From the NCBI GenBank assembly GCA_949775045.1, contig OX459104.1:718501-782500 (forward strand): a stretch of DNA of 64,000 bases, in the 5' to 3' direction. The notes under the pieces were generated by a model. The model was not told the origin of the DNA and did no database searches. It saw only the letters and a list, made by a program, of their open reading frames with translations. Source of the stretch: Metridium senile. Taxonomy: Eukaryota; Cnidaria; Anthozoa; Actiniaria; Metridiidae. A program made the position numbers and the translations under genes. Position 1 is the stretch's first letter, and every line of letters starts with the position of its first letter. Shown one piece after another: positions 5,551-58,865 of this stretch.

Positions 5551-7190
5551 TCAGAAATACCAAGCTATTACAGAACTCACGACGGTCACCACCAACATGG
5601 TCCAAGCCAAAATCTCTTTTCCAGTAAGAGATTGTATTTGATCTCGTAAATCTGTTTTCTTGGTTTCAAGTTCCTTGAAAGCGCGCTTCACTTCTGCAGT
5701 AAGATATTGTATTTGATCTCGTAAATATGCTTTCGCGGTGTCCTCTAAAGCACTGAAACAAACAAAACCCTTTTTTCAGTTTTGAAAGAATATAATAACT
5801 GGTTATTCTAATGATTGCAATTTTTTGTCCAGGTCTTTAAGAATCAAAAGTATTGAAATATTCATGTTTCGATCTTTCAACACGTATAGCTTCTTCAGTT
5901 TTCTGGCCAGTGTAATTACTTAGCCAAACGTGCAGTTGTTGACAGAACACTGAAAAAGATCTTTGGTAACAGATCGAAACGTCTTTATATTTTTTTAAAT
6001 CAAAGACAACAAGTACAATCATGATATATCTACATGTATCCTGGCTGAGACAATTAACAGTATAACTTTAGTAAAAAAAATTATTAGTTTATACTTACGT
6101 TTGGTTAGGTTGTGACCTTTGGATCCACAAAACAACCATCTCTGCCACCACCACCACCACCAACGTGATTAGAGCGTACTTCATTAATTTGTTGAGTTTT
6201 GCACATTCGGTATCCAATTTGGAGTATTTTTGTTCAAGGCTGGAAATCATAAATCCGTGATTTAAAACTGATTCAAGTAAAACAATATACAGACTTTTCA
6301 ATCTTTAGTAAAATAAATTAATAGTTTATAGTACTTACTTTTTGTTGAGTTTTGCACATTCGGTATCCAATTTGGAGTATTTTTGTTCAAGGCTGGAAAT
6401 CATAAATCCGTGACTTAAAACTGATTCAAGTAGTAAAACAATATACAGACTTTTCAATCTTTAGTAAAATAAATTAATAGTTTATAGTACTTACTTTTGG
6501 TCCCGTTTTGCACATTCGGTATCCAAACTGGAGTATTTTTGTTCAAGGCTGGAAATCATACTTTTAGTGGCCATATTTTGGTTTGTTTCTTCAGAAAATG
6601 CATCTAGTTGGACCTCAAGTGAAATAATTTTTTCATCCAACTCATTTTCGAGTTGTCCCAGCTCTTCTGTTGCAATTTGTTTGTTCTCAGCTATTGCATT
6701 AGTATTTGAAACAGATATTACAGTTAAGTTTTGTTGCATTGTCAGAAATTGTTTTTTCAGATTGTTGGTTTGGTCTTTTACTGAATTTGTCTTGGCTAGA
6801 AAGTCTTCGGTCATGGTTTTCATTTGTAGGTTAAGTTTCTTGTTCTCTTCTTGAAGAGAAAACATATTTTCGTTTACTGAATTTGTCTTGGCTACAAAGT
6901 CTTTGGCCATGGTTTCCATTTGTAGTTTAAGTTTTTTGTTCTCTTCTTGGAGAGAAAACATCTTTTCCATTGTGAAGGCAAGATGATATGTGATGACATG
7001 TTCACTGTGGGATTTCCGTGGACCCTACAATGTACGTAATTAAAGTACTATTATAAGTATCATCATCATCATTAGCGTTATCACTACCATCATTGACATC
7101 ATCAACATCATAACGGGTTACCATAATCATCATCACCATTATAATTATCATCACATACATCATCATAATCTTCATCAATATTATCATAGC

Positions 7191-7225
<35 letters not shown>

Positions 7226-10200
7226 CTATTTTATCATCACCACCATTACCACCATCATCACCACCATTATCATTATCACCATTATCATGATCACTATTAT
7301 CATCACCATCGTCATCACCATCATCATCACCATTATCACCATCATCATCAACACTATTATCATCATCTTCGCCATCACCATAATTATCATTGTCATCATC
7401 ACTATCTTTATTAACATCATTATAATAATATTCATCACCATTATTACCATTATCATCATCACTATCATCACTATTATCATCAGCATCTTAATCGCCATCA
7501 TAATCATCACTATCTTGATTATTTAAAAATCACTATGAGTACCTCAAAGTCACATCCAAATTGTTTGTAGCTACATGGTATAACTCTCATGGGACATGTG
7601 TCCAAGTGATTCTGGCTGACGCTTTGACCAGGCTTAACTGGCTTGCTCTATGCAAACAAAAAGCAAACTATAATTAAGTTGATATAAAACGTTTTTAACA
7701 ATTGTAGATTTTCTTGCATGCTGATTGGACCAAATCACAATGTGGTAAATAGGAGGTCATGTCTGGGCCCACAGTAATTGGCTCAACGCTGTTGTGGGTA
7801 CCCTGCCATGTTATTATTTATTTTCTTTGTGATGTAATTTTGTTTTCTGTTATTGTATATTATTAAGGCGAAGCTAATAAAATAAAATAAAATAAAATAA
7901 ATATCACCAAATGGTGTGAATCAGAGCATGCATAAGATCAAAACCACTGATTCAAGTCATGCCTATATAAAAACAAAATACTTCCATCTAGAGTGTTTAC
8001 TTTTTTCATGTAATATAATTAATGCTTAAGCCATGACAATGTATTTTGAAATACGTGTATAATAATTAGGAAGAAGTAGCTATAACTAGATATAGTATCT
8101 AAAAAGCCCCGGCCGATAAAATATGGCGTTATTGTAAAAGTAATTATTGTAAGTAATATTTCTTGTGTTGTATGTAAGTATGTATGTTAGTAGGTATTAA
8201 AAAAAAAAAAACATTAAGAAAAAAAAAGAAAAAAAAAAAGTACCTGAATGTCTCTCAGTTCCCCTTGCCAGGTACATCCTTGGTTTGGACAATGAACTTT
8301 GAATGAAAGGATCTTACGTTCGGTTGCCTTGTCACTAAATATCTTGAACAAAAACCAAGAGGTATTAGTATTGTAGTATTATGATTGTGATTATAGTAAT
8401 TACGATTATACTAATGAAACTTAGTAGTTTAAAGTACACCTGACGCCCTTCATGATATTTTGCAAATCTGTTGTACATGAGGTGTATAATAAGTGTACTT
8501 AATATTTCATAATGTCGACATCTCCTTTCTAAGATATAAGCATTTGAAATCTGAAAATGCAAATGAAATGACGTCTACCCAGGCCTCATTAAATATACAA
8601 AAGTTCTCTGGAAATAATTATAGCAATTTTTTAAAGCTCAATATCTGTATTACTAATATTTACACTACCATTAACATTTTTACTTCTTTACAAAAACAAG
8701 CTTGCTGTCAGCTTTGAAACAAAACTTTGACAAATTCCTGGGATGACGTCACCTCATTTGCATTTTCAGATTTCAAATGCTTATATCTCAGAAAGGAGAG
8801 GTAGACATCAAGAAATATTAAGTACACTTATTATACACCTCATGTACAACAGATTTGCAAAATATCATGAAGGGCTTCAGGTGCACTTTAATGTATAACT
8901 TGAACATAAACAAAGGGTTGTTAGTATGGTAATAATGATGGTGGTGGTGGTGGTGGTGATGGTTATAGTAATGATCATTACGATGATTATACTGATGAAA
9001 CGTAGTACTTTTATTTCTTGAATTTTCTTCATATATGCTAAAAATAATAGTGATAATGATGACGATGACAAAGATGATAATAATGATGATGATGATTGGT
9101 CAATAACATACATTTTATTTTAGAAATCAAGCTAACTACAGATTATCAAATAGGTTATTGGCTAGCCAATAACCTATTCACTAATCTGTAGGTTGCGCCT
9201 GCAATGCATTGTTGACAAAAGGCGTCAAAAACAAAGACGTGGCAAACAGCATCAATTTTGTAACACAATAAAGTTTTAGTTTGCAATCTTTTCTTTGATA
9301 AATCTTTTGTTACAATTCAAAACAATGTATTATAAAACAATTAATGAATTCGGTTTTTGTGATATCTGAAATAATCAAGGTCTCGGCAAGTTTAATCAGC
9401 CTCGGGCATCCGGCCTTGGCTGATTACACTTGCCTCGTTCTTGATTATTTCGGATATCACAAAAACCTCATCCAATAAGTGCTTAATATATGCTAATGAT
9501 AACAATGATAATCTTTGTGATAGTAAATACTGATCAATAATAAAGATAATGATCATAAAGATAATAGTCAATGATAATGATAATACTAATGATAAAATAA
9601 TAATAATGATCATATGCTAATGATAATAAATAATAATAAAGATAATAATGATAAAAATAATAGTCTGTGATAATGATGATAATGATAATACTAATGATAA
9701 AATAATACTAATGATTATATGCTAATAATAATAAATAATAATAAAAGATAATGATGGTAATAATTATATGTAACTAACTTGTTGCTCTGTCAGCTTTTCT
9801 CTGTCTTTTGGACATTCTTGTTTTCTGTGAAACAATTAAATATCATAAATCACACATGGTATTTATATTTCGTATATATTTTTTATTCAACTTTTGTTTC
9901 AGTTTAAGGTTACCGTCCACGTTCGCGGGGTGATCTCAGTTAAAAATTGTTTAGCGCGTCACTTAACAATAAAGATAGACAAAGTATATATCATTTTAAA
10001 GCTTATATAACAGAGAATAAGACTATGTAAGTTTTTTTAAGAAAACGAATATCTTTAACCAATGCTCCACGAAAAACCTCAAAATCGAGCGCTTTCATTA
10101 AAAAAAGTATAAGTCCAAAAGTTCCTACTACTTCGCCGTCATTTCTGCATTATGTCAATCAGCACATACATGTGTTCAAAACCGTGTCCAGTTTTTTCGA

Positions 10201-16893: not shown

Positions 16894-19800
16894 TTACCTG
16901 TGGCTGGTGTCGTAGTTGGTGTAACCAAAATTACAAGCTATTACAGCAATCACGACAGCAAGCAAGGCACGTAAGAACCAAGAACCTAGGATGTAAATAA
17001 GCACTGCCAACAACGTCATCAGAACGTACTTTCCCAGTGAGAAAATGATTTTGATATCGACTTCATGTACCTTTAAAACACTGCAAAACAAAACCGTTTC
17101 TTCAGTTGTGAATGAATATAATAAGAGATTCTACTGATTGCAATTTGTTGCCCCTGACTTTAATAATTTAAAGTATTAAGATTTTCATTTGTTTCGATCT
17201 TTCAACACGTAGCTTCTTCAGTGTCCTGGCTAGTGTTTTTTACCAACAGCAGTTGTGGACAGGTAACAGATCGAAACGTCAATATATTTTTGTCAGAGAC
17301 AACAAGTTACAATCATAACATGAACCTTAACTGAGACTACAGTATAACTTTAGCGAAAGGAATTATCTTTAGTAAAAGAAATTATTATTAATACTTACTC
17401 TTGGTTGAGTTGTGACTTTTGGACAAACAAAACCCTTCCCACCATCACCGTGACCACTAGTACCACCATCACTAATATGATTAGATAGTACTGCACTGTT
17501 TGAAGTGTACAAGTCAGGGTTTCAGTTTCAATTTTCCATAAACCACTGCAAACCAAAACCTTTTCATCAGTTTTGAAAGAATATGATACGAGATAAAAAA
17601 TATTAATCCACCTTTTCTTACTAAGATCACGTGGTATAAATGTCGCTTTGTGATTGGTTCAAACGAAAGTTAGGACAACTCTACATTGGTTTGGAAGTCG
17701 CTCATATGGAGAAATTTGTAAAGTTTGGATTGTCTCGTTATTAAAATGGTTAAATATTGCTCTGTTAGGAAGCACATATATACAAATCTAAACAATAGAT
17801 AGAGGCTAAAGCTATCAATGAAGAAGTAAGGACTTTACACGTGAAATTCGGCAATGGATCGACGTCAATTGATTCAGCTACAGAAAGCCGAATACCACCC
17901 ACTTGTCAATGATAACTTTTGGTAGGTTTTCTCAATATTTTCCGAGCATTACAAAGATAAATCGACCAAAGCAAGTAATTTTAACTTCAAAGAGTTTAAA
18001 AGCAAATGATTAACTTGCTAATACACGAGTTTTGCTTTACTGAAAAAAGAGCAATTTTTATCCTGAGACTCGGCGGGAAAAGCGATCATTTTCTTTCGCT
18101 TCGATTCGCTTGCTTAGTTTTATTATAGTCGCTGTTTTCACGGCTTGAACGGCAATCAAAGATAACATTTTTAATCATCAAGTTACTGTTCTAGAGTTGT
18201 GGAACATAAACTTAACAGCCAGACAATTTCAAAATAGGTATTAATGAGCTATATTTTCAATTTCACGGATAGTTTGCACGCTTCAACCTAAACTCATTAA
18301 ATTAAAATACAAACATGATAATAATAAGAAAAACTAATAGCTAATAGTTTGTGATTCATTGGAAAACTTGCAGCTTTGAAGATGTTCATTGCAGTACTAG
18401 TTTCAGTGTATTTCTTCTTCCTTTAAAAAGTAGAAGTTAAAAGTTTGAAATTTTTGCTCATCTTTGGCGTTTTTGATTGAAATTATAAGCGAAAACTTGA
18501 CTAAAATAGATTTGTAATTTTTTAGCCGTTTCTTCAAAACTTAGTTTGACTGACACCATTTAAAAGAAACAAACATACCTAAAGATGATTTGCAGCCAAC
18601 AGTCGGCTTTTGAGAGGATTTTTTGTCGGTTTAACTTTCATAAAACAACATCTTCAGTTTGTTTTTTTCCTTCGTCGTTGCATCGTAGCTGAATCCATTG
18701 ACGTCGATCCATTGCCGAATTTCACGTGTAAAGTCCTTACTTCTTCATTCATATGATAGCTAACTGGTCTCTACTAAAGATTTGTTTAGATTTGTATATA
18801 TGTGCTTCCTAACAGAGCAATATTTAACCATTTTAATAACGAGACAATCCGAGCTTTACAGATTTCTCTATATGAGCGACTTCCAAACCAAGTAGAGTTG
18901 TCCTAACTTTCGTTTGAACCAATCACAAAGCGACATTTATACCACGTGATCTGTATGAAATTTTAGTAAGAAAAGGTAGATTTGTTTTCCAGCGACTTAA
19001 AAGATTTAAAAATATGATTGTTGTAGTCAGGATTCATGATGTACCTGGTGCTCATAGATTATGTAAAGGTTATGGCTGTTACCGAGGTAAAGCTTCTAAA
19101 TAAGATTATATGTGCTATATTTTCACATGTGAAAAAAACGATATGTTCAATTAGCACGCACTTTTCACATGTGAAAATATAACCAATCAGATTTGAGTAC
19201 TGAGAGTTTCAGCCAATCAGGAAACGAGAATCAGTGAATCAGTTTTTGTAACGGCGGACCGCTTTGGACTGTAAATTTGCTATTTTCAGGTTCTTACTTT
19301 TACCTTTTACCTGTCATACCGATGTACCGATTTACCTGTCATACCGATGTAGTTTTTCTAAAGAAACATTTTATGATTTTACATGAATATTTTTAAGATT
19401 GAAGTTTTGGTTTTATACTCAATTGTTGTTTGTGTAAAACACTCACTCGCTCGTTCCTCGCTCGTTCTTGTTTTGACACAAACAACTCGTGAGTATAAAT
19501 CTGTACGTCGCACTTTCTATTAAGTAATCTCTATATGGCTCCCTCTATATATCAACCCAAGGCCAAACACGAAGCCGAATGACTAACCGCCTTACATATC
19601 ATTGGGAAAGTTTCTTAAGCACAGGGTTAATGCCTAAATATCAACCCAATTGGGAAGTCAATAACTAGATATCAACCTGGATCAGTTCGTTTGTTAATTA
19701 GTTGGGTGAATATGTAGGATAAAGATCGCTAATGAACAAAAGAAACTGACTCAATGATATAGTAGTTATATATATAGTTATATATATATAGTTTTATACT

Positions 19801-22800
19801 CACTTTTGGTCCCGTCGTTCACAATCTGTATGCAATCTGATGCATTCCTGATCAAGGTTGTAAAACATACTTATATTTGTGGCCATATTTTTATTTATAT
19901 TCTTAGAATTTTCTTCTAGTTGGTTGTCAAGTAAAACAATTCTACTAACAAGTCGGGTTGTCTGGTCTTGGATTTTTCTGATATCATCATCTGTTTGTTC
20001 AGAAATTCCATGTACTTGGTGCTTAAGCGATGAAAATTCTTGTTGTATTGCCAGAAACTGTTTTTTTAAATTGTAAGTTTGGTCTTTTACTGAATTTGTC
20101 TTGGCTTCAAAGTCTTTGGTCATGGTTTCCAATTGTAGGTTAAGTTTCTTGTTCTCTTTTTGAAAAGAAAACATGTTTTCTTTTACTGAATTTGTCTTGG
20201 CTTCAAAGTCTTTGGTCATGGTTTCCATTTGTCGGTTAAGTTTCTTGTTCTCTTTTTGAAAAGAAAACATGTTTTCTTTTACTGAATTTGTCTTGGCTTC
20301 AAGGTCTTTGGTCATGGTTTCCATTTGTTGTTTAAGTTTTTTGTTCTCTTCTTGGAGAGAAAACATGTTTTCCATTGTGAAGGCAAGATGATATGTAATG
20401 ACATGTTCACTATGGGATTTTAGTGGACCCTACGTAATTAAAGTAGTATTATAAGTTTCATCATCATCATTAGCGTTATCACTACCATCATTGACATCAT
20501 CATCATCAACATCATAACGGGTTAACATAATCATCATCACCATTATAATTATCATCAAATACATAATCATAGTCTTTATATTCAATATTATCATAGCCAT
20601 CATCTTCACCATCATCATCACTGTCGTCATCCCCATCATCATCACGATTATCATAATCACCATTATCATCATCATCAACACTATTATCATCATCTTCGCC
20701 ACCACCATAATTATCATTGCCATCATCACTATCTTTATTGTCATTTTTTGGACATCATTATACGAATCTTCATCACCATTATCATCATTTTTATCATCAC
20801 TATTATCATCATTATATTCATCACTATTATCATCATTATATTCATCACTATTATCATCATTATATTCATCACTATTATCATAATCATCATCATTATTATC
20901 ATTATTATTTAAAATCCTTATTAATACCTTAAAGTCACATCCAAAGGGTTTGTAGCTACATGGTATAACTCTCATGGGACATGTGTCCAAGTGATTCTGG
21001 CTGACGGCCTGACCAGGCTTAACTGGCTTGCTCTATGACAAACAAAACACATTTTTAACCACAACTGTAGCTTTTCTTGCATGCTGATTGGTCCAAATCA
21101 TGCTGTGGTAAATAGGAGGTTGTATCAATCAAATTGTGTCAATTAATCAGCGCATGCATAAGATCAAAACCACTGATGCAAGTTATGCCTATACCAGGCA
21201 AAAACAAAATACTCAGCTAAGTTTAATCCATTCAACAATCTTTGCATATAATTGTAAATTGAAGACCGGTTGGCTTAGTTGGTGAAGTGCCGGACTACAG
21301 TGTGGGACTGAGGTGCTGGGTTCGCATCCCGGCCCGACCAATACTCAAGGTCTTATAAAACAATTGAGGAGAAGGTGCTGCCTTAAAGTTTGTAATTAAA
21401 TCTGCAAATGGTTAGATCTTTGCGTCTTCTCAGATAAGGACGTAAAACCAAAGGTCCCGTCTGTCTTCACTCTATTCAAACCCTATATAAGGCAGACGTT
21501 AAAGGTCCTGTTGTGCTGTCCGCAAAGAGTAGGGGATTGTCCCCCGGTGCAACCGTTAGGTCTCCGAGGCATACACTAATCTACACTCATGATTGTAAAC
21601 TGCTTCTAGCAGTCCAATAAGTCCTCCACATGTAACATAAGAAGTTGTAAACAGTCACGAAAAAGCCCCAAAGGGATCTGGCTGTGTATAACAATCATGA
21701 TTCTAAAATTTTGTTTACTTTTTTCATGTGATATACAGTGTCATTAATGCTTAAGCCGGGACAATGTATTTTGAAATAAGTGTAATAAATAATAATCATT
21801 AATAACTACCTGATCATGAATGTGTATTAAATAATAATGTGTAATAAATAATAATTATTAATAACTACCAGAATGTGTATTAAATAATAATCATTAATAA
21901 GTACCTGAATGTGTATTAAATAATAATCATTAATAACTACCTGAATGTGTATTAAATAATAATCATTAATAACTACCTGAATGTGTATTAAATAATAATC
22001 ATTAATAAGTACCTGAATGTGTATTAAATAATAATCATTAATAAGTACCTGAATGTGTATTAAATAATAATCATTAATAAGTACCTGAATGTGTATTAAA
22101 TAATAATCATTAATAAGTACCTGAATGTGTATTAAATAATAATCATTAATAAGTACCTGAATGTGTATTAAATAATAATCATTAATAAGTACCTGAATGT
22201 GTAATAAATAATAATCATTAATAAGTACCTGAATGTGTATTAAATAATAATCATTAATAAGTACCTGAATGTGTATTAAATAATAATCATTAATAAGTAC
22301 CTGAATGTGTAATAAATAATAATCATTAATAAGTACCTGAATGTGTAATAAATAATAATCATTAATAAGTACCTGTATGTGTAATAAATATTAATCATTA
22401 ATAAGTACCTGAATGTGTATTAATTAATAATCATTAATAAGTACCTGAATGTGTATTAAATAATAATCATTAATAAGTACCTGAATGTGTATTAAATAAT
22501 AATCATTAATAACTACCTGAATGTGTATTAAATAATAATCATTAATAAGTACCTGAATGTGTATTAAATAATAATCATTAATAAGTACCTGAATGTGTAT
22601 TAAATAATAATCATTAATAAGTACCTGAATGTGTATTAAATAATAATCATTAATAAGTACCTGTATGTGTAATAAATATTAATCATTAATAACTACCTGA
22701 ATGTGTATTAATTAATAATCATTAATAAGTACCTGAATGTGTATTAAATAATAATCATTAATAAGTACCTGAATGTGTATTAAATAATAATCATTAATAA

Positions 22801-25800
22801 CTACCTGAATGTGTATTAAATAATAATCATTAATAAGTACCTGAATGTGTATTAAATAATAATCATTAATAAGTACCTGAATGTGTATTAAATAATAATC
22901 ATTAATAAGTACCTGAATGTGTATTAAATAATAATCATTAATAAGTACCTGTATGTGTAATAAATATTAATCATTAATAACTACCTGAATGTGTATTAAT
23001 TAATAATCATTAATAAGTACCTGAATGTGTATTAAATAATAATCATTAATAAGTACCTGAATGTGTATTAAATAATAATCATTAATAACTACCTGAATGT
23101 GTATTAAATAATAATCATTAATAAGTACCTGAATGTGTATTAAATAATAATCATTAATAAGTACCTGAATGTGTATTAAATAATAATCATTAATAAGTAC
23201 CTGAATGTGTAATAAATAATAATCATTAATAACTACCTGAATGTGTATTAAATAATAATCATTAATAACTACCTGAATGTGTATTAAATAATAATCATTA
23301 ATAACTACCTGAATGTGTAATAAATAATAATCATTAATAAGTACCTGTATGTGTAATAAATATTAATCATTAATAACTACCTGAATGTGTATTAATTAAT
23401 AATCATTAATAAGTACCTGAATGTGTATTAAATAATAATCATTAATAAGTACCTGAATGTGTATTAAATAATAATTATTAATAACTACCTGAATGTGTAT
23501 TAAATAATAATCATTAATAAGTACCTGAATGTGTATTAAATAATAATCATTAATAAGTACCTGAATGTGTATTAAATAATAATCATTAATAAGTACCTGA
23601 ATGTGTATTAAATAATAATCATTAATAAGTACCTGAATGTGTAATAAATAATAATCATTAATAACTACCTGAATGTGTAATAAATAATAATCATTAATAA
23701 GTACCTGAATGTGTAATAAATAATAATCATTAATAAGTACCTGAATGTGTAATAAATATTAATCATTAATAACTACCTGAATGTGTATTAATTAATAATC
23801 ATTAATAAGTACCTGAATGTACAGTAATAAATAATAATCATTAATAAGTACCTGAATGTACAGTAATAAATAATAATCATTAATAACTACCTGAATGTGT
23901 ATTAAATAATAATCATTAATAAGTACCTGAATGTGTATTAAATAATAATTATTAATAACTACCTGAATGTGTATTAAATAATAATCATTAATAAGTACCT
24001 GAATGTACAGTAATAAATATTAATCATTAATAAATACCTGAATGTGTAATAAATAATAATCATTAATAACTACCAGAATGTGTAATAAATAATAATCATT
24101 AATAAGTACCTGAATGTGTAATAAATAATAACCATTAATAACTACCTGAATGTGTAATAAATAATAATCATTAATAAGTACCTGAATGTGTAATAAATAA
24201 TAATCATTAATAAGTACCTGAATGTGTATTAAATAATAATCATTAATAAGTACCTGAATGTGTAATAAATAATAATCATTAATAAGTACCTGAATGTGTA
24301 ATAAATAATAATCATTAATAACTACCAGAATGTGTAATAAATAATAATCATTAATAAGTACCTGAATGTGTAATAAATAATAATTATTAATAAGTACCTG
24401 AATGTGTAATAAATAATAATCATTAATAAGTACCTGAATGTGTAATAAATAATAATCATTAATAACTACCAGAATGTGTAATAAATAATAATCATTAATA
24501 AGTACCTGAATGTGTAATAAATAATAATCATTAATAACTACCTGAATGTGTAATAAATAATAATCATTAATAAGTACCTGAATGTGTATTAAATAATAAT
24601 CATTAATAAGTACCTGAATGTGTATTAAATAATAATCATTAATAACTACCTGAATGTGTATTAAATAATAATCATTAATAAGTACCTGAATGTGTAATAA
24701 ATAATAATCATTAATAACTACCTGAATGTGTATTAAATAATAATCATTAATAAGTACCTGAATGTGTAATAAATAATAATCATTAATAACTACCTGAATG
24801 TGTAATAAATAATAATCATTAATAACTACCAGAATGTGTAATAAATAATAATCATTAATAAGTACCTGAATGTGTATTAAATAATAATCATTAATAACTA
24901 CCTGAATGTGTATTAAATAATAATCATTAATAAGTACCTGAATGTGTAATAAATAATAATCATTAATAAGTACCTGAATGTGTATTAAATAATAATCATT
25001 AAAATACCTGAATGTGTAATAAATAATAATCATTAATAACTACCTGAATGTGTATTAAATAATAATCATTAATAAGTACCTGAATGTGTATTAAATAATA
25101 ATCATTAATAAGTACCTGAATGTGTATTAAATAATAATCATTAATAAGTACCTGAATGTGTATTAAATAATAATCATTAATAAGTACCTGAATGTGTATT
25201 AAATAATAATCATTAATAAGTACCTGAATGTGTAATAAATAATAATCATTAATAAGTACCTGAATGTGTATTAAATAATAATCATTAATAAGTACCTGAA
25301 TGTGTAATAAATAATAATCATTAATAACTACCTGAATGTGTATTAAATAATAATCATTAATAAGTACCTGAATGTGTATTAAATAATAATTATTAATAAG
25401 TACCTGAATGTGTAATAAATAATAATCATTAATAAGTACCTGAATGTGTAATAAATAATAATCATTAATAAGTACCTGAATGTGTAATAAATAATAATCA
25501 TTAATAAGTACCTGAATGTTTCTCAGTTCCCCTTGCCAGGTACATCCTTGGTTTGGACAATGAACTTTGAATGAAAGGATCTTACGTTCGGTTGCCTTGT
25601 CACTAAATATCTTGAACAAAAACCAAGGGCTATTAGTATGAAGAGAAGAAGAAGTTTGCCATGTCTTGTTGTAAATAAATAAGAGAAAGAGACTAATCAT
25701 AAGGCATTTATCCAAACGTTTTGCCCTCTGCAGGCTTCTTCAGTGAATTAACAATGGTTGGTAAATGGATCAATATTGGAATAATATACAAGATTAGTTA

Positions 25801-27679
25801 AACAATGTGAAAAGCTATGGTCCTTTTAATCAATCAATAACTTTATTAAAGTCTCAAGTCTTCTAGCTTTACACATGTGTAATACTAATCGGTATTACAC
25901 ATTACACATTGTTAGTAGTAGCTAGCAGTATTGTAATATTATGATGATGGTGGCAGTGCTGGTGGTGCATGTTGGTGATGATGGCCATAGTGATGGAAAC
26001 ATTACAGTGCGACTCTCCATACCATAGTCACTTACAAAAACTTTTGATTAATTTTTGACATTATTTTGACATTTTTTCATCTCAATTAGACCAATCAGGT
26101 ACAAGTTAATATCAACAGGTGGAGTTTACATCAAAAGGCGGAGACTTTATAGAAAGTTTGATGTCTGTAATTGGTCCGATTGAGATGAAAATTAAATGTC
26201 AAAATAATGTCAAAAATTAACCAAAAGTTTTTTGTAAGTGACTGCAGTACACTCACTCTGTGAGTCACACATGCAGTAAACAATTACTGCCTTCTTTCAA
26301 AAACAAGTTCAAAACACTTCTTTTCGACAATTAGCTGGTATATTTTTTCCCTGTTGGTGTAAAGCTCACCAAGATTTAATGGGGCCCGCTATATAAGAAA
26401 TTGATTATTATTATCATTTTAATGATGATATTAGCAGTGATGTTGACAATGATGATGATGATAATAATGATAATGAAAAAGATAATAATTTACCTGTATG
26501 ATAAAAATATTATTTTAAAATATTATAGTGATAATAATGATGATGATGACAATAATGATGATAAAGTAATAATTAAGAAATAGAAGACGATTTTCCGTGT
26601 TATATAGCCTGATCTAAACACGCGTGATGTTGGGAGAACACGAGAGAGCGTAGGAAAAGCACAAGCCGTTTTTTGAGGCTATAAATCGGCATTTTAATTG
26701 CTGATAAGAATAGCAATTCTCAATACGCGTGCCATCAATACGCGCGTGCATGTTTAGATAGCCTCATCCAACACGGTTTTTGACCAATCAGAGCATGCGT
26801 ACTATCTAAATTATTTTATAATAATGATTATATGCTTAAATGATAATGATGCTATAAGTTATATAGTAAAGTTATAATGATGGTAATAATTTTAATTTTA
26901 TGCAACTAACTTGTTGTTTAGTCAACTGTTCTCTGTCTATTGGACATTCTTGTTTTCTGTGAAACAATTAAATATCATAATCACACAATTCATGAGAAAT
27001 TCTACTCTTAGAGTGATATTACTAATTTGTATGGATAAAATTTTACATTCAAAAAATCATATCTCAGCCGTTTCACACTCAAATGATCCCAAATTTTTGG
27101 GCAGCCTATATTTTGACTAGCATTCTATGATGAAAGTAGTCTGAATACGAAAAGATAAAAACAAAACAAAATTGTGACGTCATCACTTCGCGATCGGTAC
27201 TCTATTTCGGTTTTGATATTTTGTTCATTATCGGTTGACGGTGCATTTTGAAATTTACAATATCGGTTTTGTTTTTGCAAGTTTAAAAACAAATTTAAAA
27301 TCAAGTTTGGAAGAATAAATCGAGCCTTCCAACCTCGATAGGAACGCTTCAGTAGGCTTGGCTGCAACTCGACCCGAGTTTCATAGCATATTTTCATATT
27401 TCTGTATAATATTTACCAATTAAAGTATTCAGTTAACTACCAAAGAACAACATTATCAGTATTAATTAACATGTAAACGAATATAGAATGAAATAATACA
27501 TTAGAAAATGATACATACCCGGATTTCTTGTGGGCAAACATCAGACAATCTTTGCAAAATTGATGTCCACATTTTGTTTGGACCGGGCTTCGTAGAACTG
27601 ACTGGCAAATACTACAAATATATTCCTCTATAGGATCCACAAACTTATAGTCAAACCCTGAAGGCTGTTTTTGAGCCAT
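16894..27679 (-). CDS. TRAF-like RING/zinc-finger/coiled-coil membrane protein, gene B
   Basis: Seven exons on the minus strand: 27519-27679, 26911-26956, 25512-25610, 20928-21032, 19804-20429, 17399-17545 and 16894-17080. The product is 456 residues and all phases agree. The RING lacks two residues (IP) and one acidic residue before the first Cys compared with A and C, but keeps all zinc ligands, ending CPID. Both TRAF-type fingers are intact. The coiled coil holds three copies of a 32-residue repeat (starting ENMFS, ending AKTNSVK). The C-terminus has a membrane segment at about 366-386 and a second hydrophobic pair at about 413-446. One base fewer than in C removes the ancestral stop, so B gains a short tail ending DTSHR. 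A splice donor (CAG|GTAATA) overlaps this stop, so a further 3' exon is possible. Intron 3 holds the 36-bp splice-site array and intron 5 a 1.4-kb fold-back element. The intact frame despite very large introns argues for selection. Confidence 0.8.
17608..18979. mobile_element. 1.37-kb fold-back element in gene B intron 5
   Basis: Terminal inverted repeats of about 300 bp (ends ACCTTTTCTTACTAA; internal ACACGTGAAATTCGGCAATG) surround a unique AT-rich middle without a transposase. Gene C has the uninterrupted intron sequence near 35510-35540, which serves as an empty site. Confidence 0.9.
20440..20910. repeat. ATC/ATT microsatellite in gene B intron 4
   Basis: CATCATCAT and TTATATTCATCACTATTATC tracts. 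The long minus-strand frame through it is fused to true exon 4 only by chance. Confidence 0.9.
21262..21705 (+). mobile_element. tRNA-derived SINE in gene B intron 3
   Basis: The 5' end has a pol III A box (TGGCTTAGTTGG) and B box (GGTTCGCATCC) at tRNA spacing, but the acceptor stem does not pair well, so it is tRNA-derived and not a tRNA gene. A body of about 350 bp follows, ending near AAAGGGATCTGGCTGTGTAT. Gene C has continuous intron sequence at the matching place (about 38075-38095). Confidence 0.8.
21787..25511 (-). repeat. 36-bp minisatellite made of repeated 5' splice sites (gene B intron 3)
   Basis: About 100 tandem 36-bp units abut exon 3 of gene B. On the minus strand each unit carries CATTCAG|GTACTTATT, identical to the exon-3/intron-3 boundary, followed by AT-rich intron start. 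Thirty-six bases are twelve codons and the frame matches exon 3, so the array would read VLINDYYLIHIQ per unit. The frame is open from the exon for about 13 units, then shifts at a shortened unit near 25005 and stays open in another frame to about 24020. Farther units have a TAATTAATA variant that creates stops. Variants alternate GTACTT/GTAGTT. The simplest reading is intronic; splicing at distal donors would add repeats to the protein. Confidence 0.95.
26025..26243. mobile_element. hairpin MITE in gene B intron 2
   Basis: Inverted ends AGTCACTTACAAAAA and complement, with TTGACATTATTTTGACATTT inside the arms. Confidence 0.85.
26275..26430 (+). pseudogene. non-LTR retrotransposon 3' end (gene B intron 2)
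   Basis: The plus strand reads LPSFKNKFKTLLFDN then a stop, the usual last residues of CR1/L2-type reverse transcriptases (FK..LKT.LF). A non-coding tail follows and runs into an ATT/ATG microsatellite (26401-26580). Confidence 0.6.
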
Positions 27680-29464: not shown

Positions 29465-31135
29465 TTCCATCTATATCATTCATCATCCATCATTCATCAT
29501 CCATCATTCATCATCCATCATTCATTATTCATCATCCATCATTCATTAATCCATCATTCGTCATCCATCATTCATTCATCTATCATCCATTCATTCATCC
29601 ATCATTCATCATCCACCATTCATTCATTCATCCATCATTCATCCATCATTCATCATCCATAATTCATCATTCATTCATCCATCATTCATCATCCTTCATT
29701 CATCATCCATCATTCATCATCCATCATTCATCATCCATCATTCATCATCCATCATTCATCATCCATCATTCATCATCCTTCATTCATCATCCATCATTCA
29801 TCATCCATCATTCATCATCCATCATTCATCATCCATCATTCATCATCCTTCATTCATCATCCTTCATTCATCATCCATCATTCATTATCCATCATTCATT
29901 CATCCATCATTCATCATCCTTCATTCATCATCCTTCATTCATCATCCATCATTCATCATCCATCATTTATCCATCATTCATCATCCATCATTCATTATCC
30001 ATCATTCATCATCCATCATTCATCATCCATCATTCATTCATCCATCATTCATCATCCTTCATTCATCATCCATCATTCATCATCCATCATTCATTATCCA
30101 TCATTCATCATCCATCATTCATCATCCATCATTCATTCATCCATCATTCATCCATCATTCATCATCCTTCATTCATCATCCATCATTCATCATCCATCAT
30201 TCATTATCCATCATTCATTCATCCATCATTCATCCATCATTCATCATCCTTCATTCATCATCCATCATTCATCATCCATCATTCATTCATCCATCATTCA
30301 TTCATCATTCATCATCCTTCATTCATCATCCATCATTCATCATTCATTCATCCATCATTCATCCATCATTCATCATCCTTCATTCATCATCCATCATTCA
30401 TCATCCATCATTCATTATCCATCATTCATCATCCATCATTCATCATCCATCATTCATTCATCCATCATTCATCCATCATTCATCATCCTTCATTCATCAT
30501 CCATCATTCATCATCCATCATTCATTATCCATCATTCATTCATCCATCATTCATCCATCATTCATCATCCTTCATTCATCATTCATCATTCATCATTCAT
30601 TCATCCATCATTCATCCATCATTCATCATCCTTCATTCATCATCCATCATTCATCATCCATCATTCATTATCCATCATTCATCATCCATCATTCATTCAT
30701 CCATCATTCATTCATCATTCATCATCCTTCATTCATCATTCATCATCCATCATTCATTCATCCATCATTCATCATCCTTCATTCATCATCCATCATTCAT
30801 CATTCATTCATTCATCATTCATCATTCATCATCCATCATTCATCATCCATCATTCATTATCCATCATTCATCCATCATTCATCATCCTTCATTCATCATC
30901 CATCATTCATCATCCATCATTCATCATCCTTCATTCATCATCCATCATTCATCATCCATCATTCATTATCCATCATTCATTATCCATCATTCATTCATCC
31001 ATCATTCATTCATCCATCATTCATCATTCATTCATCCATCATTCATCCATCATTCATCATCCATCATTCATTATCCATCATTCATCCATCATCCATTCAT
31101 CCATCATTCATCCATCATCCATCATCGATCCATCT
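29465..31135. repeat. (ATTCATCATCC)n-type minisatellite
   Basis: About 1.65 kb of interspersed CATTCATCATCCAT, ATTCATTCATCC and CATCATCCTTCATT words with higher-order blocks of about 100-300 bp. A 658-codon open frame spans it but is pure SSFIHHPSFI repeats and is not a credible gene. Confidence 0.93.
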
Positions 31136-31999
31136 TTCATCTTTTATTCTTCATCCATTCTTCATTCCTCATTTCTTCATTTATCCTTTCACTCATTTTT
31201 TATTTTTTTTACTATCTTTTTTTTTCATTTTATTTATTTTTTATTTATCTAGTTGTTTTCAATCTGTATATCTATTTTTTTGTTTATTTGTATGGCTATG
31301 TATGACTATGTATGACTATGTATGGCTATGTATGGCTATGTATGGCTAAGTATGCCTATGTATGGCTATGTATGCCTGTATGGCTATGTATGGTTATATA
31401 TACGTATGTAGGCCTATGTATTTGATGTATGGTTATGGAACACATATATACAAAGAAATATAAGAACCACTATGTGTGTGTTACATGAAGTCCTAACCGA
31501 GAAAGTGGTGATTAACCGCTGACTGGACAGTGTGTGTCTGCAGGCGATAGCTGGACCACAGGCAGTCCAGACAATGCTTTTGAGACTAAAATGGAAAAAA
31601 TAAATAATTGAAATTATAGAATCGTCCCAAATAAATATTCTAAACGTTAACTTGCATTGCTTTGGCTACTGTTGATGGTGATAATGGTAGCAACAATGAA
31701 GATAAAATAGAAAATAAATATATATATTATTTCTAAAAGCGCGCGAAACGCTGTAGTTGGATGCACCGCTGATCATAGAAATCGCGTCTGCAGATTGGTT
31801 CCAGAATTTCAAACTTGTGTATTTGCGGCCCTTGAAGCGTCATTTGCGCTCCGCTCGTGCATGTCTTTTTATTGATATCATTATTTAACTTATTCTACTT
31901 TTACTGACAATATATTTAATTTTCTAAAGGGCCAGTGTAAGATTAGCTATGCTAAACTGGTGTATTTTGCAAAGAGTTTTTAGACCTTCTTTCAATAAA

Positions 32000-37800: not shown

Positions 37801-40800
37801 GATTGGACCAAATCATGCTGTGGTATTAAGGAGGTCATATCTGGGTCCACAGTAATTGGCTAACGCTGTTGTGATGTACCCTGCCATGTTATTATTTAAT
37901 ATTGTATTATTAAGGCGAAGCTAATAAAATAAAGTAAAATAAAATAAATATCACCAAATTGTGTCAATTAATCAACACATGCATAAGATCAAAACCACTA
38001 ATTCAAGTCATGCCCATATCAGGCAAACAAAACAAAAATCAGCTTGAATCCATTCAAACATTTTTGCACATAATTGTCAGTAATAATTAACAATCATTAT
38101 TCTAAAATTTCTTTCATCTAGAGTGTTTATTTTTTTTCATGTAATATAATTAATGCTTAAGCCATGACAATGTATTTTGAAATACGTGTATAATTATTAT
38201 TAATAAGTACCTGGATGTCTCTCAATTCCCCTTGCCAGGTACATCCTTGGTTTGGACAATGAACTTTGGATGAAAGGATCTTACGTTCAGTTGCCTTGTC
38301 ATTAAATAGCTTGAACAAAAACCAAGGGCTGTTAGTATCGTAATATTATTATGATGATGGTGGTGGTGATATAGTGATGGTGACAATAATGCGTTGCATG
38401 ATGTGATTGGATAATGATAACAATCATTTTGAATATGATGATGATGATAATAATGACATTGAAAAAGATAATTATGATAAAAATAATACTGATGCATATG
38501 ATGATGATGATAATGATAAAGATAATTAATTATGATAAAAATAATACTTATGCATACGATGATGATGATGATGATGATGATAATGATAAACTAAGATAAT
38601 TAATTATGATAAAAATAATACTTATGCATACGATGATGATGATGATGATGATAATGATAAAGATAATTATGATAAAAATAATACTGATGCATATGATGAT
38701 AATGATCAATGATAAAGATAATTAATTATGATAAAAATAATACTTATGCATACGATGATGATGATGATGATGATAAAGATAATTATGATAAAAATAATAC
38801 TGATGCATATGATGATGATGATGATAATGATAAAGATAATTATGATAAAAATAATACTGATGCATATGATGATGATGATGATGATGATAAAGATAATCAT
38901 GATAAAAATAATACTGATGGATATGATGATGATGATGATAAAGATAATTATGATAAAAATAATACTGATGGATATGATGATGATGATGATAATGATAAAG
39001 ATAATTATGATAAAATAATACTGATGCATATGATGATGATGATGATGATGATAATGATAAAGATAATTATGATAAAAATAATAGTCAGTGATAATGATGA
39101 TGTTGACAGTGATGATGATAATTAATGATAATCATGAGGATAATGATAATGTAATAATAATGATTATATGCTAATGATAATGATGACAATAATAAATACT
39201 AAACATAATGATGATAATCATTTTATGCAACTAACTTGTTCAGTCAACTGTTCTCTGTCTATTGGACATTCTTGTTTTCTGTGAAACAATTAAAATATCA
39301 TATTATTACATAATTCATGTGAAATTTTACTTTTAGAGTGATATTACTACTACTCCTATTTCATTGTTAATTTCGGTTTTAATGTTTTTTTGTTCAGGAC
39401 TTCAGCTTTTCTCAACAATTTCAATAAAGAAGTCTCTTAATTACAGCCAAACCTACTGAAGCGTTAAAAATTCCTATTGAGGTTTAGAACATTCAATTTG
39501 TTTATCGAAATTTGTTTTCAAATTTGTTTTGAAAATATCATAAATGAATCGATTCTTGTAAGTTTCAAAAACCGCTTCAAATCAAAACATCACTTTCAAC
39601 GTTTTTTGGACAACAGAAACTTGCTAAACCCTGAGTCTGCTTATACACAAGGGCCTCCAGGGTTTTTTTTCGTGACCTGTGATCGGGCATTTTAATTTTC
39701 CGTGATCTGAGAATTCTAGAAATAATTTCTCGTGATTCGTGCACGGCACTTGTCCCGTGACTCGTGAAAAGCTAAAATAATTGTTCGACATTCGGGAATA
39801 AATTGGTGATATTCGTGAATTTTCGGAATTTTTTTAAATGGAAAACAAACAGACAGACCAGTTATGATAATGCCTGGCGGATATCATGCCGACGCGTCAA
39901 ACATGATCAAAAATTAAGTAAATGATTAAACATAACGTTATACTCAGATTACATCGAGTCATCTAAAGTCAATATAGCGGGTCAATATGGCGAGGGAAAT
40001 GTGGGGGAAATATGGTGACTTAGAATTAAATCCTTCCCCCAGTACCTGGGAGAATTGTGGTGGATAGGTAAAATGGTTAAAATCCTCCAAAAGCATTAGA
40101 ATTCTTTATACAGGGTTGTTAATAATTAAGTCTTGGTCACCAATGACTTAAAAAGCAAATTAATACAACTACGTACGAGCGACGTTTTTGCGTTTTGTCT
40201 TCAATTAATATTGGGGTTGCTGTGTTGAGTGAGACACACTACTAGTAGACTGGTACCTAGACAACATGGCGGCCAAACGGCAATGTGAGAAAGGCCTGTG
40301 AGAAAGGCCAGAACAGCTGCTCAGTTTACTGAAGTAAGGGAAAGTACTCTTCATGTCTTAATCACTAGATATGTGTTGATACTACATGCATGCCTTTCAA
40401 CAAGGTAATAATGTTGATCAATAGCAGTTTAGAAAATTAAGAAATTCCCAAATACTTTCCTTGTAAATTTTGCTTTTCAATAAATTTAACTTTGTTTCAC
40501 AGATTTAGTGTGTGCACTCTGTTTGTTGACAGTTTTATTTTTATTTGTGAATTTTCTCTTAACTTTGCCCCAGGTACTGGTGAAATATAGGGGTATTTTC
40601 TTCATAAACCTGCCCTGAATACCTGGGGAAATAAGACACCTTTGCTCTGGACTCAAAGCAAAGTCCCCACATTAGCCTGGAGTCCCCTCCCCTCGTGGAA
40701 GCCGATGACAGGTGCATTATGAATAGAATAGAATAGAATATAATTTTATTACAATATTTACATGGCAGTGTACACTGAATTACGTAAATTTACAATACTA

Positions 40801-47605: not shown

Positions 47606-48029
47606 GTAATAAATAATAATCATTAATAAGTACCTGAATGTGTATTAAATAATAATCATTAATAAGTACCTGAATGTGTATTAAATAATAATCATTAATA
47701 AGTACCTGAATGTGTATTAAATAATAATCATTAATAAGTACCTGAATGTGTATTAAATAATAATCATTAATAAGTACCTGAATGTGTAATAAATAATAAT
47801 TATTAATAAGTACTTGAATGTGTATTAAATAATAATCATTAATAAGTACCTGAATGTGTATTAAATAATAATCATTAATAAGTACCTGAATGTGTATTAA
47901 ATAATAATCATTAATAAGTACCTGAATGTGTATTAAATAATAATCATTAATAAGTACCTGAATGTGTATTAAATAATAATTATTAATAACTACCTGAATG
48001 TGTATTAAATAATAATCATTAATAAGTAC
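47606..48029 (-). repeat. 36-bp splice-site minisatellite in gene D intron 3
   Basis: About 12 units abutting the zinc-finger-1 exon of D, the same 36-bp unit as at 21787-25511, in frame and open from the exon through the whole block. The distal edge (TTTGAAATAAGTGTAATAAA) matches the distal edge of the B array. Confidence 0.95.
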
Positions 48030-48234
48030 CTGAATGTCTCTCAATTCCCCTTGCCAGGTACATCCTTGGTTTGGACAATGAACTTTGAATGAAAGGATCT
48101 TACGTTCGGTTGCCTTGTCAATAAATATCTTGAATAAAAACCAAGGGCTGTTATATAGTATCGTAATAATGATGATGGTGATAGTGACAATAATGCTTTG
48201 CATGATGTGATTGGGATAATGATAACAATCATTT

Positions 48235-51200
48235 TGAATATGATGATGATGATGATAATGACATTGAAATAGATAATTATGATAAAAATAATACTGATGC
48301 ATATGATGATGATGATAATGCAATGACATTGAAAAAGATAATTATGATAAAATAATACTGATGCATATGATGATGATGATGATAATGATCAATGATAAAG
48401 ATAATTATGATAAAAATAATACTGATGCATATGATGATGATGATAATGCAATGACATTGAAAAAGATAATTATGATAAAAACAATACTGATGCATATGAT
48501 GATGATGATGATAATGATCAATGATAAAGATAATTATGATAAAAATAATACTGATGCATATGATGATGATGATGATGATGATAATGATAATGATAATTAT
48601 GATAAAATAATACTGATGCATATGATGATGATGATGATAATGATAAAGATAATTATGATAAAATAATACTGATGCATATGATGATGATGATGATAATGAT
48701 AAAGATAATGATAAAGATAATACTGATGCATATGATGATGATGATGATAATGATAAAGATAATTATGATAAAATAATACTGATGCATATGATGATGATGA
48801 TGATAATGATAAATGATAATGATAAAGATAATTATGATAAAATAATACTGATGCATATGATGATGATGATGATAATGATAAAGATAATTATGATAAAATA
48901 ATACTGATGCATATGATGATGATGATGATAATGATAAATGATAATTATGATAAAAATAATACTGATGCATATGATGATGATGATGATAATGATAAAGATA
49001 ATTATGATAAAATAATACTGATGCATATGATGATGATGATGATAATGATAAAGATAATTATGATAAAATAATACTGATGCATATGATGATGATGATGATA
49101 ATGATAAAGATAATTATGATAAAATAATACTGATGCATATGATGATGATGATGATAATGATAAAGATAATTATGATAAAAATAATACTGATGCATATGAT
49201 GATGATGATGATGATAATGATAAAGATAATTATGATAAAAATAATACTGATGCATATGATGATGATGATGATGATGATAATGATAATGATAAAGATAATT
49301 ATGATAAAATAATACTGATGCATATGATGATGATGATGATAATGATAAATGATAATTATGATAAAAATAATACTGATGCATATAATGATGATGATAATAA
49401 TGACATTGAAAAAGATAATTATGATAAAAATAATACTGATGCATATGATGATGATGATGATAATGATAAAGATAATTATGATAAAAATAATACTGATGCA
49501 TATGATGATGATGATAATAATGACATTGAAAAAGATAATTATGATAAAAATAATACTGATGCATATGATGATGATGATAATAATGACATTGAAAAAGAAT
49601 TATGATAAAAATAATACTGATGCATATGATGATGATGATAATAATGACATTGAAAAAGATAATTATGATAAAAATAATACTGATGCATATGATGATGATA
49701 ATAATGACATTGAAAAAGATAATTATGATAAAAATAATACTGATGCATATGATGATGATGATAATAATGACATTGAAAAAGATAATTATGATAAAAATAA
49801 TACTGATGCATATGATGATGATAATAATGACATTGAAAAAGATAATTATGATAAAAATAATACTGATGCATATGATGATGATAATAATAATGACATTGAA
49901 AAAGATAATTATGATAAAAATAATACTGATGCATATGATGATGATAATAATAATGACATTGAAAAAGATAATTATGATAAAAATAATACTGATGCATATG
50001 ATGATGATGATAATGCAATGACATTGAAAAAGATAATTATGATAAAATAATACTGATGCATATGATGATGATGATAATAATGACATTGAAATAGATAATT
50101 ATGATAAAAATAATACTGATGCATATGATGATGATGATAATGCAATGACATTGAAAAAGATAATTATGATAAAAACAATACTGATGCATATGATGATGAT
50201 GATGATGATAATGATCAATGATAAAGATAATTATGATAAAAATAATACTGATGCATATGATGATGATGATAATAATGACATTGAAAAAGAATTATGATAA
50301 AGATAATTATGATAAAAATAATACTGATGCATATGATGATGATGATGATGATGATAATGATAAATGATAAAGATAATTATGATAAAATAATACTGATGCA
50401 TATGATGATGATGATGATAATGATAAATGATAATTATGATAAAAATAATACTGATGCATATAATGATGATGATAATAATGACATTGAAAAAGATAATTAT
50501 GATAAAAATAATACTGATGCATATGATGATGATGATGATGATGATAATGATAAAGATAATTATGATAAAAATAATACTGATGCATATGATGATGATGATG
50601 ATAATGATAAATGATAATTATGATAAAAATAATACTGATGCATATAATGATGATGATAATAATGACATTGAAAAAGATAATTATGATAAAAATAATACTG
50701 ATGCATATGATGATGATGATGATAATGATAAAGATAATTATGATAAAAATAATACTGATGCATATGATGATGATGATAATAATGACATTGAAAAAGATAA
50801 TTATGATAAAAATAATACTGATGCATATGATGATGATGATAATAATGACATTGAAAAAGATAATTATGATAAAAATAATACTGATGCATATGATGATGAT
50901 GATAATAATGACATTGAAAAAGAATTATGATAAAAATAATACTGATGCATATGATGATGATGATAATAATGACATTGAAAAAGATAATTATGATAAAAAT
51001 AATACTGATGCATATGATGATGATAATAATGACATTGAAAAAGATAATTATGATAAAAATAATACTGATGCATATGATGATAATGACATTGAAAAAGATA
51101 ATTATGATAAAAATAATACTGATGCATATGATGATGATAATAATGACATTGAAAAAGATAATTATGATAAAAATAATACTGATGCATATGATGATGATAA

Positions 51201-53496
51201 TAATAATGACATTGAAAAAGATAATTATGATAAAAATAATATTGATGCATATGATGATGATAATAATAATGACATTGAAAAAGATAATTATGATAAAAAT
51301 AATACTGATGCATATGATGATGATGATAATGCAATGACATTGAAAAAGATAATTATGATAAAAATAATACTGATGCATATGATGATGATGATAATGATAA
51401 TGATAAAGATAATTATGATAAAATAATACTGATGCATATGATGATGATGATGATAATGATAAATGATAATTATGATAAAAATAATACTGATGCATATAAT
51501 GATGATGATAATAATGACATTGAAAAAGATAATTATGATAAAAATAATACTGATGCATATGATGATGATGATGATAATGATAAAGATAATTATGATAAAA
51601 ATAATACTGATGCATATGATGATGATGATAATAATGACATTGAAAAAGATAATTATGATAAAAATAATACTGATGCATATGATGATGATGATAATAATGA
51701 CATTGAAAAAGAATTATGATAAAAATAATACTGATGCATATGATGATGATGATAATAATGACATTGAAAAAGATAATTATGATAAAAATAATACTGATGC
51801 ATATGATGATGATAATAATGACATTGAAAAAGATAATTATGATAAAAATAATACTGATGCATATGATGATGATGATAATAATGACATTGAAAAAGATAAT
51901 TATGATAAAAATAATACTGATGCATATGATGATGATAATAATGACATTGAAAAAGATAATTATTATAAAAATAATACTGATGCATATGATGATGATAATA
52001 ATAATGACATTGAAAAAGATAATTATGATAAAAATAATACTGATGCATATGATGATGATAATAATAATGACATTGAAAAAGATAATTATGATAAAAATAA
52101 TACTGATGCATATGATGATGATGATAATGCAATGACATTGAAAAAGATAATTATGATAAAATAATACTGATGCATATGATGATGATGATAATAATGACAT
52201 TGAAATAGATAATTATGATAAAAATAATACTGATGCATATGATGATGATGATAATGCAATGACATTGAAAAAGATAATTATGATAAAAACAATACTGATG
52301 CATATGATGATGATGATGATAATGATCAATGATAAAGATAATTATGATAAAAATAATACTGATGCATATGATGATGATGATAATAATGACATTGAAAAAG
52401 AATTATGATAAAGATAATTATGATAAAAATAATACTGATGCATATGATGATGATGATGATGATGATAATGATAAATGATAAAGATAATTATGATAAAATA
52501 ATACTGATGCATATGATGATGATGATGATAATGATAAATGATAATTATGATAAAAATAATACTGATGCATATAATGATGATGATAATAATGACATTGAAA
52601 AAGATAATTATGATAAAAATAATACTGATGCATATGATGATGATGATGATGATGATAATGATAAAGATAATTATGATAAAAATAATACTGATGCATATGA
52701 TGATGATGATGATAATGATAAATGATAATTATGATAAAAATAATACTGATGCATATAATGATGATGATAATAATGACATTGAAAAAGATAATTATGATAA
52801 AAATAATACTGATGCATACGATGATGATGATGATGATGACATTGAAAAAGATAATTATGATAAAAATAATACTGATGCATATGATGATGATGATAATAAT
52901 GACATTGAAAAAGATAATTATGATAAAAATAATACTGATGCATATGATGATGATGATAATAATGACATTGAAAAAGAATTATGATAAAAATAATACTGAT
53001 GCATATGATGATGATGATAATAATGACATTGAAAAAGATAATTATGATAAAAATAATACTGATGCATATGATGATGATAATAATGACATTGAAAAAGATA
53101 ATTATGATAAAAATAATACTGATGCATATGATGATAATGACATTGAAAAAGATAATTATGATAAAAATAATACTGATGCATATGATGATGATAATAATGA
53201 CATTGAAAAAGATAATTATGATAAAAATAATACTGATGCATATGATGATGATAATAATAATGACATTGAAAAAGATAATTATGATAAAAATAATATTGAT
53301 GCATATGATGATGATAATAATAATGACATTGAAAAAGATAATTATGATAAAAATAATACTGATGCATATGATGATGATGATAATGCAATGACATTGAAAA
53401 AGATAATTATGATAAAAATAATACTGATGCATACGAAGATGATGATAATGATCAATGATAAAGATAATTAATATGATAAAAACAATACTGATGCAT

Positions 53497-53528
<32 letters not shown>

Positions 53529-58770: not shown

Positions 58771-58865
58771 GCAGGACACTGGCTGGCCTCGGCTAAATAT
58801 ACATTAAAAGGTGAGAAAGATTTACTTAAATGTTTTAAAATAAGGTTAATTCAAACTAATTACGT

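Follow-up and report, generated by a model that had tools for sequence, protein, structure and literature searches.

A minisatellite with about one hundred potential splice donors at an exon boundary of a predicted TRAF-like gene in Metridium senile

Here, we analysed a window of 64,000 nucleotides of the Metridium senile genome (contig OX459104.1; C10:718501-782500 of an assembly with 389,276,800 bases in 169 contigs), in which a minisatellite with a 36-bp unit occupies the boundary between exon 3 and intron 3 of gene B, a predicted gene for a TRAF-like protein. The array presents 103 potential 5' splice sites (donors) in a row. Judged from paralogs that lack an array, the 36-bp unit is a duplicated exon-3/intron-3 boundary, composed of 6-8 nt of exon and 28-30 nt of intron, and we suggest that a neutral by-product is a more probable reading of the array than a selected device. 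Positions given without a contig are those of the window.

Donor array at the end of exon 3

Read on the sense strand, the end of exon 3 (AGAAACATTCAG) is followed by 102 units (consensus GTACTTATTAATGATTATTATTTAATACACATTCAG) and a final donor with 28 intron bases, such that the array begins 8 nt inside exon 3 and extends into intron 3, with its first donor at 25511 and its last at 21809. Nearly all units (97 of the 102) measure 36 nt, the others 39 nt (three), 34 nt (one) and 59 nt (one); Tandem Repeats Finder (TRF) called the array at 21836-25519 with a period of 36, 102.1 copies and 95% matches. The array length is that of one assembly, in which intron 3 comprises 4515 nt in gene B compared to 632, 522 and 690 nt in its paralogs A, C and D, respectively. 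The dinucleotide GT is kept in all 103 donors: 71 read CAG/GTACTT (the slash marks the exon-intron junction), 25 CAG/GTAGTT, 2 CAG/GTATTT and 5 CTG/GTAGTT, so that CAG precedes GT in 98 cases. AG/GT is recreated at nearly all junctions between units, as CAG comes from the end of the exon and GT from the start of the intron. In total, 98 AGGT junctions were counted, and the array also holds about 100 weak acceptor-like CAGs.

The original prediction, made from the letters of the stretch, had described about one hundred consecutive near-identical donors at 21787..25511, in units that join the last bases of exon 3 to the first bases of the intron. The number was confirmed, with 98 of the 103 GT donors following the pattern CAG/GTA[C/G/T]TT. 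The make-up of the unit was likewise borne out by the single-donor paralogs and by the 8-nt overlap of the TRF arrays with exon 3 in both B and D, the native donor of gene B being donor 1 of its array. The locus was correct as well, while its span turned out to be 21782-25519. Paralog D carries a further array, of 12 donors, at about 47606-48037, which goes beyond that prediction.

How strong are these sites? Donors and acceptors were scored with general matrices rather than with ones built from M. senile; on this scale, the native donor of gene B lies at the 95.9th percentile of 2,836 GT dinucleotides outside both arrays, and donors with at least its score occur at 26.3/kb in the array, compared to 1.9/kb outside both arrays on the same strand. 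Its computed pairing with the 5' end of U1 amounts to -7.6 kcal/mol, compared to -14.5 kcal/mol for a perfect site; the gene B donor is a modest, sub-consensus site. Among the array donors, 98 of the 103 have computed U1 duplexes of between -7.6 and -8.3 kcal/mol, and the five of the CTG type reach -4.8 kcal/mol. It had been proposed that the array might titrate the U1 small nuclear ribonucleoprotein (U1 snRNP). In such a sponge, about 100 adjacent sites would bind U1 snRNP along a single transcript and either deplete it or delay processing. The period of 36 nt slightly exceeds the 35-nt footprint of U1 (23 + 12 nt) given in the available part of PMC6002489, and hence one U1 per unit could fit. 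With pairing this weak and a single locus in a genome of 389 Mb, however, we consider such a sponge effect highly improbable, and this part of the proposal found no support.

The unit core TAATGATTATTA (minus strand, throughout the array) is a 12-nt near-palindrome with G-U pairs, and the GTAC of the donor is palindromic, too; units should thus be able to pair with each other in RNA. With shuffles of its full length as the reference, the predicted fold of a 213-nt stretch of the array gave z = -4.75. We ascribe no special RNA structure to the array, as 16 of 300 controls built from repeated dinucleotide-shuffled units folded equally well.

Origin and growth of the array

Self-comparison of the window revealed, as repeated blocks, the four paralogs A to D, which are arranged in tandem on the minus strand and share 93.3-97.5% identity over exon 3 and the 20 bases upstream of it. 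Two further paralogs, which lie outside this cluster, were recovered with a query of exons 3 and 4: exon 3 of the copy on C1 (L034, C1:43363602-43363700) has one donor, CAG/GTATTTATT, exon 3 of the copy on C5 (L035, C5:18769179-18769277) has one donor, GAG/GTACAG, and neither carries an array. Arrays were thus found in two of the six copies whose boundary was read (B and D), with 103, 12 or 1 donors per copy. In paralog C, the exon end GACATCCAG is nearly identical to that of gene B and is followed by the lone donor CAG/GTACTTATTAATAATAATTATACACGTATTTCAAAATACATTG; in paralog A, a T-rich stretch comes after the lone donor. The final unit of gene B runs on as ...TTATTACACTTATTTCAAAATACATTG, an intron sequence common to C (CTTATTTCAAAATACATTG vs CGTATTTCAAAATACATTG). 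It is the single donor of the array-less paralogs at the matching position that identifies the unit as a copy of the exon-intron boundary, and the AC shared by the edges of the units is, in the copies compared, a 2-nt microhomology.

A genome-wide exact search for the 21-nt core of the unit (one C/G position) gave at least 97 matches in 389 Mb, 87 in the array of B and 10 in that of D; none was found elsewhere, the counts being lower bounds and diverged copies not having been searched for. As all exact matches lie in the two arrays, we rejected an origin from a dispersed satellite or mobile element within the same limit. The full unit had 0 exact matches in viral contigs, in a collection from which records of this or near genomes may be excluded.

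The pattern of rare units tells how the array might have grown. Each of the five T21A units has a T18A unit as its next neighbour downstream, an adjacency with a probability of 1.3e-8 under random placing, and these pairs are spaced 11, 11, 8 and 8 units apart. Such rare units, repeatedly side by side, point to growth of the array through copying of multi-unit blocks. An exception to this block pattern is unit 42 (39 nt), a sixth unit of the T18A type without a T21A neighbour, and the lag periodicity of the units was not clearly above that of shuffles (0.29 at lags 1 and 11; shuffled maxima of 0.27 on average and 0.37 at the highest); of the two, the adjacency of the rare units is the stronger sign of block copying.

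Do the arrays of B and D go back to a common ancestor? Informative sites were few and conflicting (exon 1, AB/CD 1; exon 3, AB/CD 1; exon 4, AD/BC 2; coil, one per split; intron past the array, in a poor alignment, AC/BD 2 and AD/BC 1) and thus allow no choice between common ancestry and gene conversion. Only a truncated RING exon is left in paralog D, and a motif search did not recover its exon 2. Between exon 3 of D and its exon-1 remnant lies a 63-bp satellite (48238-53518; 5.3 kb, about 85 copies), and other arrays of the window have units of 14 bp (about 119 copies, 29475-31141) and 41 bp (18 copies, 58860-59601). Altogether, TRF assigned 21,461 of the 64,000 window bases, about a third, to tandem repeats, so that the birth of minisatellites is common here; the uncommon part is that this minisatellite captured a splice site.

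Host gene and exon map

Five exons, whose phases match, are predicted for gene B and encode 333 residues in an open frame upstream of its last exon or exons (Table 1). Its product matches the Pfam families RING (residues 22-59) and zf-TRAF (residues 83-132), both above cut-off, and the nearest solved structures are those of the TRAF6 RING/zinc-finger region (best E 7.8e-26). By these predicted domains, gene B is a TRAF-like gene with a RING finger, a TRAF-type zinc finger and a probable coiled coil, and we refer to it as an immune-signalling-type gene. A database search returned nine protein relatives, the best with 46% identity over 65% of the query; all five that bear an organism name stem from sea anemones or stony corals (Exaiptasia, Oculina, two Pocillopora and Stylophora), a similarity that would place the host most likely among the hexacorals. 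No match to MATH, the C-terminal TRAF domain, was obtained in five downstream open reading frames (ORFs; two below the exons of A, three between A and B), the last exon of gene B not being fixed. ORFs with strongly hydrophobic stretches lie 3' of the coil exons of A and B, at 17398-17658, 16897-17130, 6098-6304 and 5554-5775, and their best 19-residue Kyte-Doolittle means are 2.95, 2.35, 2.57 and 1.95, respectively. As these four are hydrophobic and have no MATH match, the products of A and B may be membrane-anchored TRAF-like proteins. The coiled-coil exon contains a 96-bp exonic repeat (32 residues per unit) with 3.0 copies in B (20083-20372) and 2.0 copies in A (6777-6967), hence the coil length of the two paralogs differs via an in-frame minisatellite.

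Table 1 Features of gene B and its paralogs in the window
Feature	Position	Strand	Description
Gene B 36-bp minisatellite	21782..25519	-	102 units and a closing partial one (28 nt), with 103 potential donors; overlaps the final 8 nt of exon 3
Units 1-14	25008..25511	-	continue the reading frame of exon 3 without a stop; 12 residues per unit
Unit 15	24974..25007	-	34 nt; frame shifted into stops
Gene B exon 1	27519..27679	-	start codon and most of RING finger; open frame; donor CGG/GTATGT; phase matches exon 2
Gene B exon 2	26911..26956	-	end of RING; acceptor ttcacag/; donor CAA/GTTAGT; arrangement shared with A and C
Gene B exon 3	25512..25610	-	99 nt; N-terminal half of TRAF-type zinc finger (CPNQGC)
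Gene B exon 4	20928..20996	-	69 nt; other zinc-finger half (HLDTC); acceptor gccag/; donor AAG/GTATTA
Gene B exon 5	19804..20429	-	probable coiled coil (by eye); open frame; donor AAA/GTGAGT
Paralog A exon 3	8244..8342	-	single donor CAG/GTACTTTT; no array
Paralog C exon 3	38211..38309	-	lone donor CAG/GTACTTATTAATAATAATTATACACG; array-less, regarded as ancestral
Paralog D exon 3	48030..48128	-	
Paralog D array at exon-3/intron-3 boundary	47606..48037	-	12 donors (48029 to 47633), one of them CAA/GT

Donor choice in gene B and in related systems

What would happen if a donor other than the native one was used? The unit length of 36 is divisible by three, and frame 0 is the sole open frame. With exons 4 and 5 attached, the first 15 of the 103 donors in gene B (donors 1-15) give open messages of 333-501 residues in steps of 12; the 0-168 residues gained would be inserted into the zinc finger after residue 102, at the junction of Q102 and N103, between CPNQGC and HLDTC. 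Donors 16-103 (88 of the 103) lead to a broken message. The claim of the original prediction that distal donors insert multiples of 12 residues into the zinc finger could hence hold with an open message for donors 2-15 and fails for all later ones, and the in-frame run it had put at about 13 units is real, with a count of 14 until unit 15 shifts the frame. All 12 donors of paralog D keep the frame open into exon 4. Skipping of either exon 3 or exon 4 would preserve the frame of gene B.

By the donors in its units, the array of gene B is one of the donor-bearing minisatellites, as are those of IFI6 and ABCA7. The minisatellite of human IFI6 (6-16, G1P3) reportedly supplies multiple splice donors, as Turri and co-workers are said to have found in 1995. 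It has a 12-nt unit in about 26 copies. Two downstream repeat units act as donors and yield three mRNA species, according to the available part of PMC4526556. Both genes thus have minisatellite units that bear donors, with their use in mRNA known for IFI6; gene B differs in its 36-nt unit, its 103 donors, its TRAF-type zinc finger of a cnidarian and the presence of 12- and single-donor paralogs in one genome. In ABCA7, a variable number tandem repeat (VNTR) of intron 18 has a 25-bp unit with a donor in each; the sections of PMC5954066 at hand report a one-unit retention of 2 +/- 1%, independent of array length, and a skipping of the downstream exon 19 that increases with array length. As in gene B, the ABCA7 VNTR starts at the exon's donor, the first two bases of the unit are the donor and the arrays are long (PMC5954066). 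However, the 25-bp unit shifts the frame, whereas the 36-bp unit of gene B preserves it. Retention of one unit was observed in ABCA7, for which splicing data and length variation among people are reported (PMC5954066). In human segmentally duplicated genes, tandem repeats located where exons meet introns are a further likeness, since their number varies between recent paralogs and may alter splicing; in contrast to gene B, the available part of PMC2812944 concerns human genes and describes novel introns instead of a row of donors. Among the literature matches listed, which comprise open-licence papers and were retrieved without cnidarians as a search term, neither a cnidarian donor array nor this gene was found.

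One way to read the open run is that donors 2-15 are used and generate a ladder of isoforms, in which 12-168 extra residues (VLINDYYLIHIQ-type repeats) between CPNQGC and HLDTC tune or diversify the protein. The 15 open exon 1-5 messages of 333-501 amino acids, the 12 open donors of D and a unit length that is a multiple of three with a single open frame are in line with it, as is the use of early repeat donors in IFI6 and ABCA7. Stops and frameshifts are, however, not depleted in the array. They disrupt 13 of the 102 units, and a first disruption at unit 15 or later is expected with P = 0.13 under random unit order; the eight substitution types in the 36-nt units comprise one synonymous, five missense and two stop changes, compared to 20, 81 and 7 among all 108 possible ones. 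Since the 97 units of 36 nt all agree at 28 of their 36 positions, the constant GT is no evidence of selection. We thus found no selection on frame or donors in frame disruptions, unit order and substitution types, a test that is weak because variants are few. Paralog D moreover has no intact RING exon, and a lone match, which aligned to the exon-3 part only (residues 1-32), came from a protein database queried with exon 3, repeats and exon 4. We regard such a length generator as unlikely. Still more would be claimed by a working exon-length generator with donors spaced to the U1 footprint, 0-14 inserted 12-residue repeats in B and 0-11 in D, the inherited length of the array then serving as a dial for an adaptor gene of the immune type; this we hold to be a long shot.

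The Exaiptasia gene model P0010 (104 amino acids) ends 8 residues past its last exon-3-aligned residue (residue 96), an end that looks as if the model read through the exon-3 donor. Spliced retrocopies, as a record of splice choice, did not emerge among 12 of the 13 matches to a genome query with exons 3 and 4, each of which stays within one exon or reaches at most a few residues past it; the remaining one is a distant match on C6 with 43% identity over residues 1-51.

As each unit runs from GT to AG, donors and acceptors of the array might also pair with each other, which would result in recursive splicing or in internal introns of 36n nt. AG/GT is fused in the units, as a comparison with recursive splice sites showed, with 98 AGGT junctions in gene B, and a branch-point-like TTAAT can be read off the unit about 25 nt upstream of each CAG. 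Yet the unit acceptor reaches just the 80.5th percentile of AGs on the minus strand, arrays included, although the native acceptor of exon 4 scores even lower (66th percentile). As animal introns are usually longer than 36 nt, an internal intron would have to span two units or more. In fission yeast, AGGT tandem duplicates yielded introns covering several copies, as described in the available part of PMC4974935. The intron gain treated there (Rogers model) resembles the gene B array in that duplicated segments with AG/GT create GT...AG units; the duplicated segment is exonic in that model (PMC4974935), whereas the gene B unit straddles an existing boundary, with 6-8 of its 36 nt exonic and 28-30 intronic. 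We judge such a ladder of mini-introns to be very improbable.

Which donor would win? In the part of PMC6002489 available to us, the intron-proximal of two comparable donors is described as preferred, for an unknown cause. If distal donors often won in gene B, frameshifted messages would decay, gene B would be lowered compared to A and C, and array length would tune its output. We keep this rival explanation since the intron-proximal preference would destroy the message of gene B; 88 of the 103 donors break it, intron 3 is much longer in B (4515 nt) than in A, C and D, and exon 19 skipping in ABCA7 increases with VNTR length (PMC5954066). However, exons 1-5 of gene B are still open, so that the gene is not obviously dead, and unit retention in ABCA7 is constant across array lengths in the same source. 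An array that poisons its own gene appears improbable to us, too.

We favour instead the following course of events. A 36-bp exon-3/intron-3 segment of an anthozoan TRAF-like gene would have been duplicated in tandem at the AC microhomology, presumably by recombination, and copying of blocks of several units would then have expanded it to 102 units in B and to an array with 12 donors in D. Splicing would mainly take place at the exon-proximal donor or the first few, minor in-frame messages would carry one or few 12-residue inserts in the zinc finger, and skipping of the 69-nt exon 4 might be increased. Taken together, we think it rather likely that the array is a boundary-derived, probably neutral minisatellite, in which, by analogy to IFI6 and ABCA7, splicing would mostly take place at the exon-proximal end and 12-residue inserts would be a minor product. 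Two points weigh against it: (i) the intron-proximal preference, if valid here, would break most messages of gene B, and (ii) the open frame of all 12 donors in D and of units 1-14 in B could also be explained by selection.

How the spliceosome chooses between two comparable donors is stated as not known in the available part of PMC6002489. One genome with close paralogs of the same exon that carry 103, 12 and 1 donors is a ready natural series for the study of donor choice. The array shows that the end of an exon can seed a minisatellite altering the splicing options of a gene, and it could give the cell about 100 places to cut.

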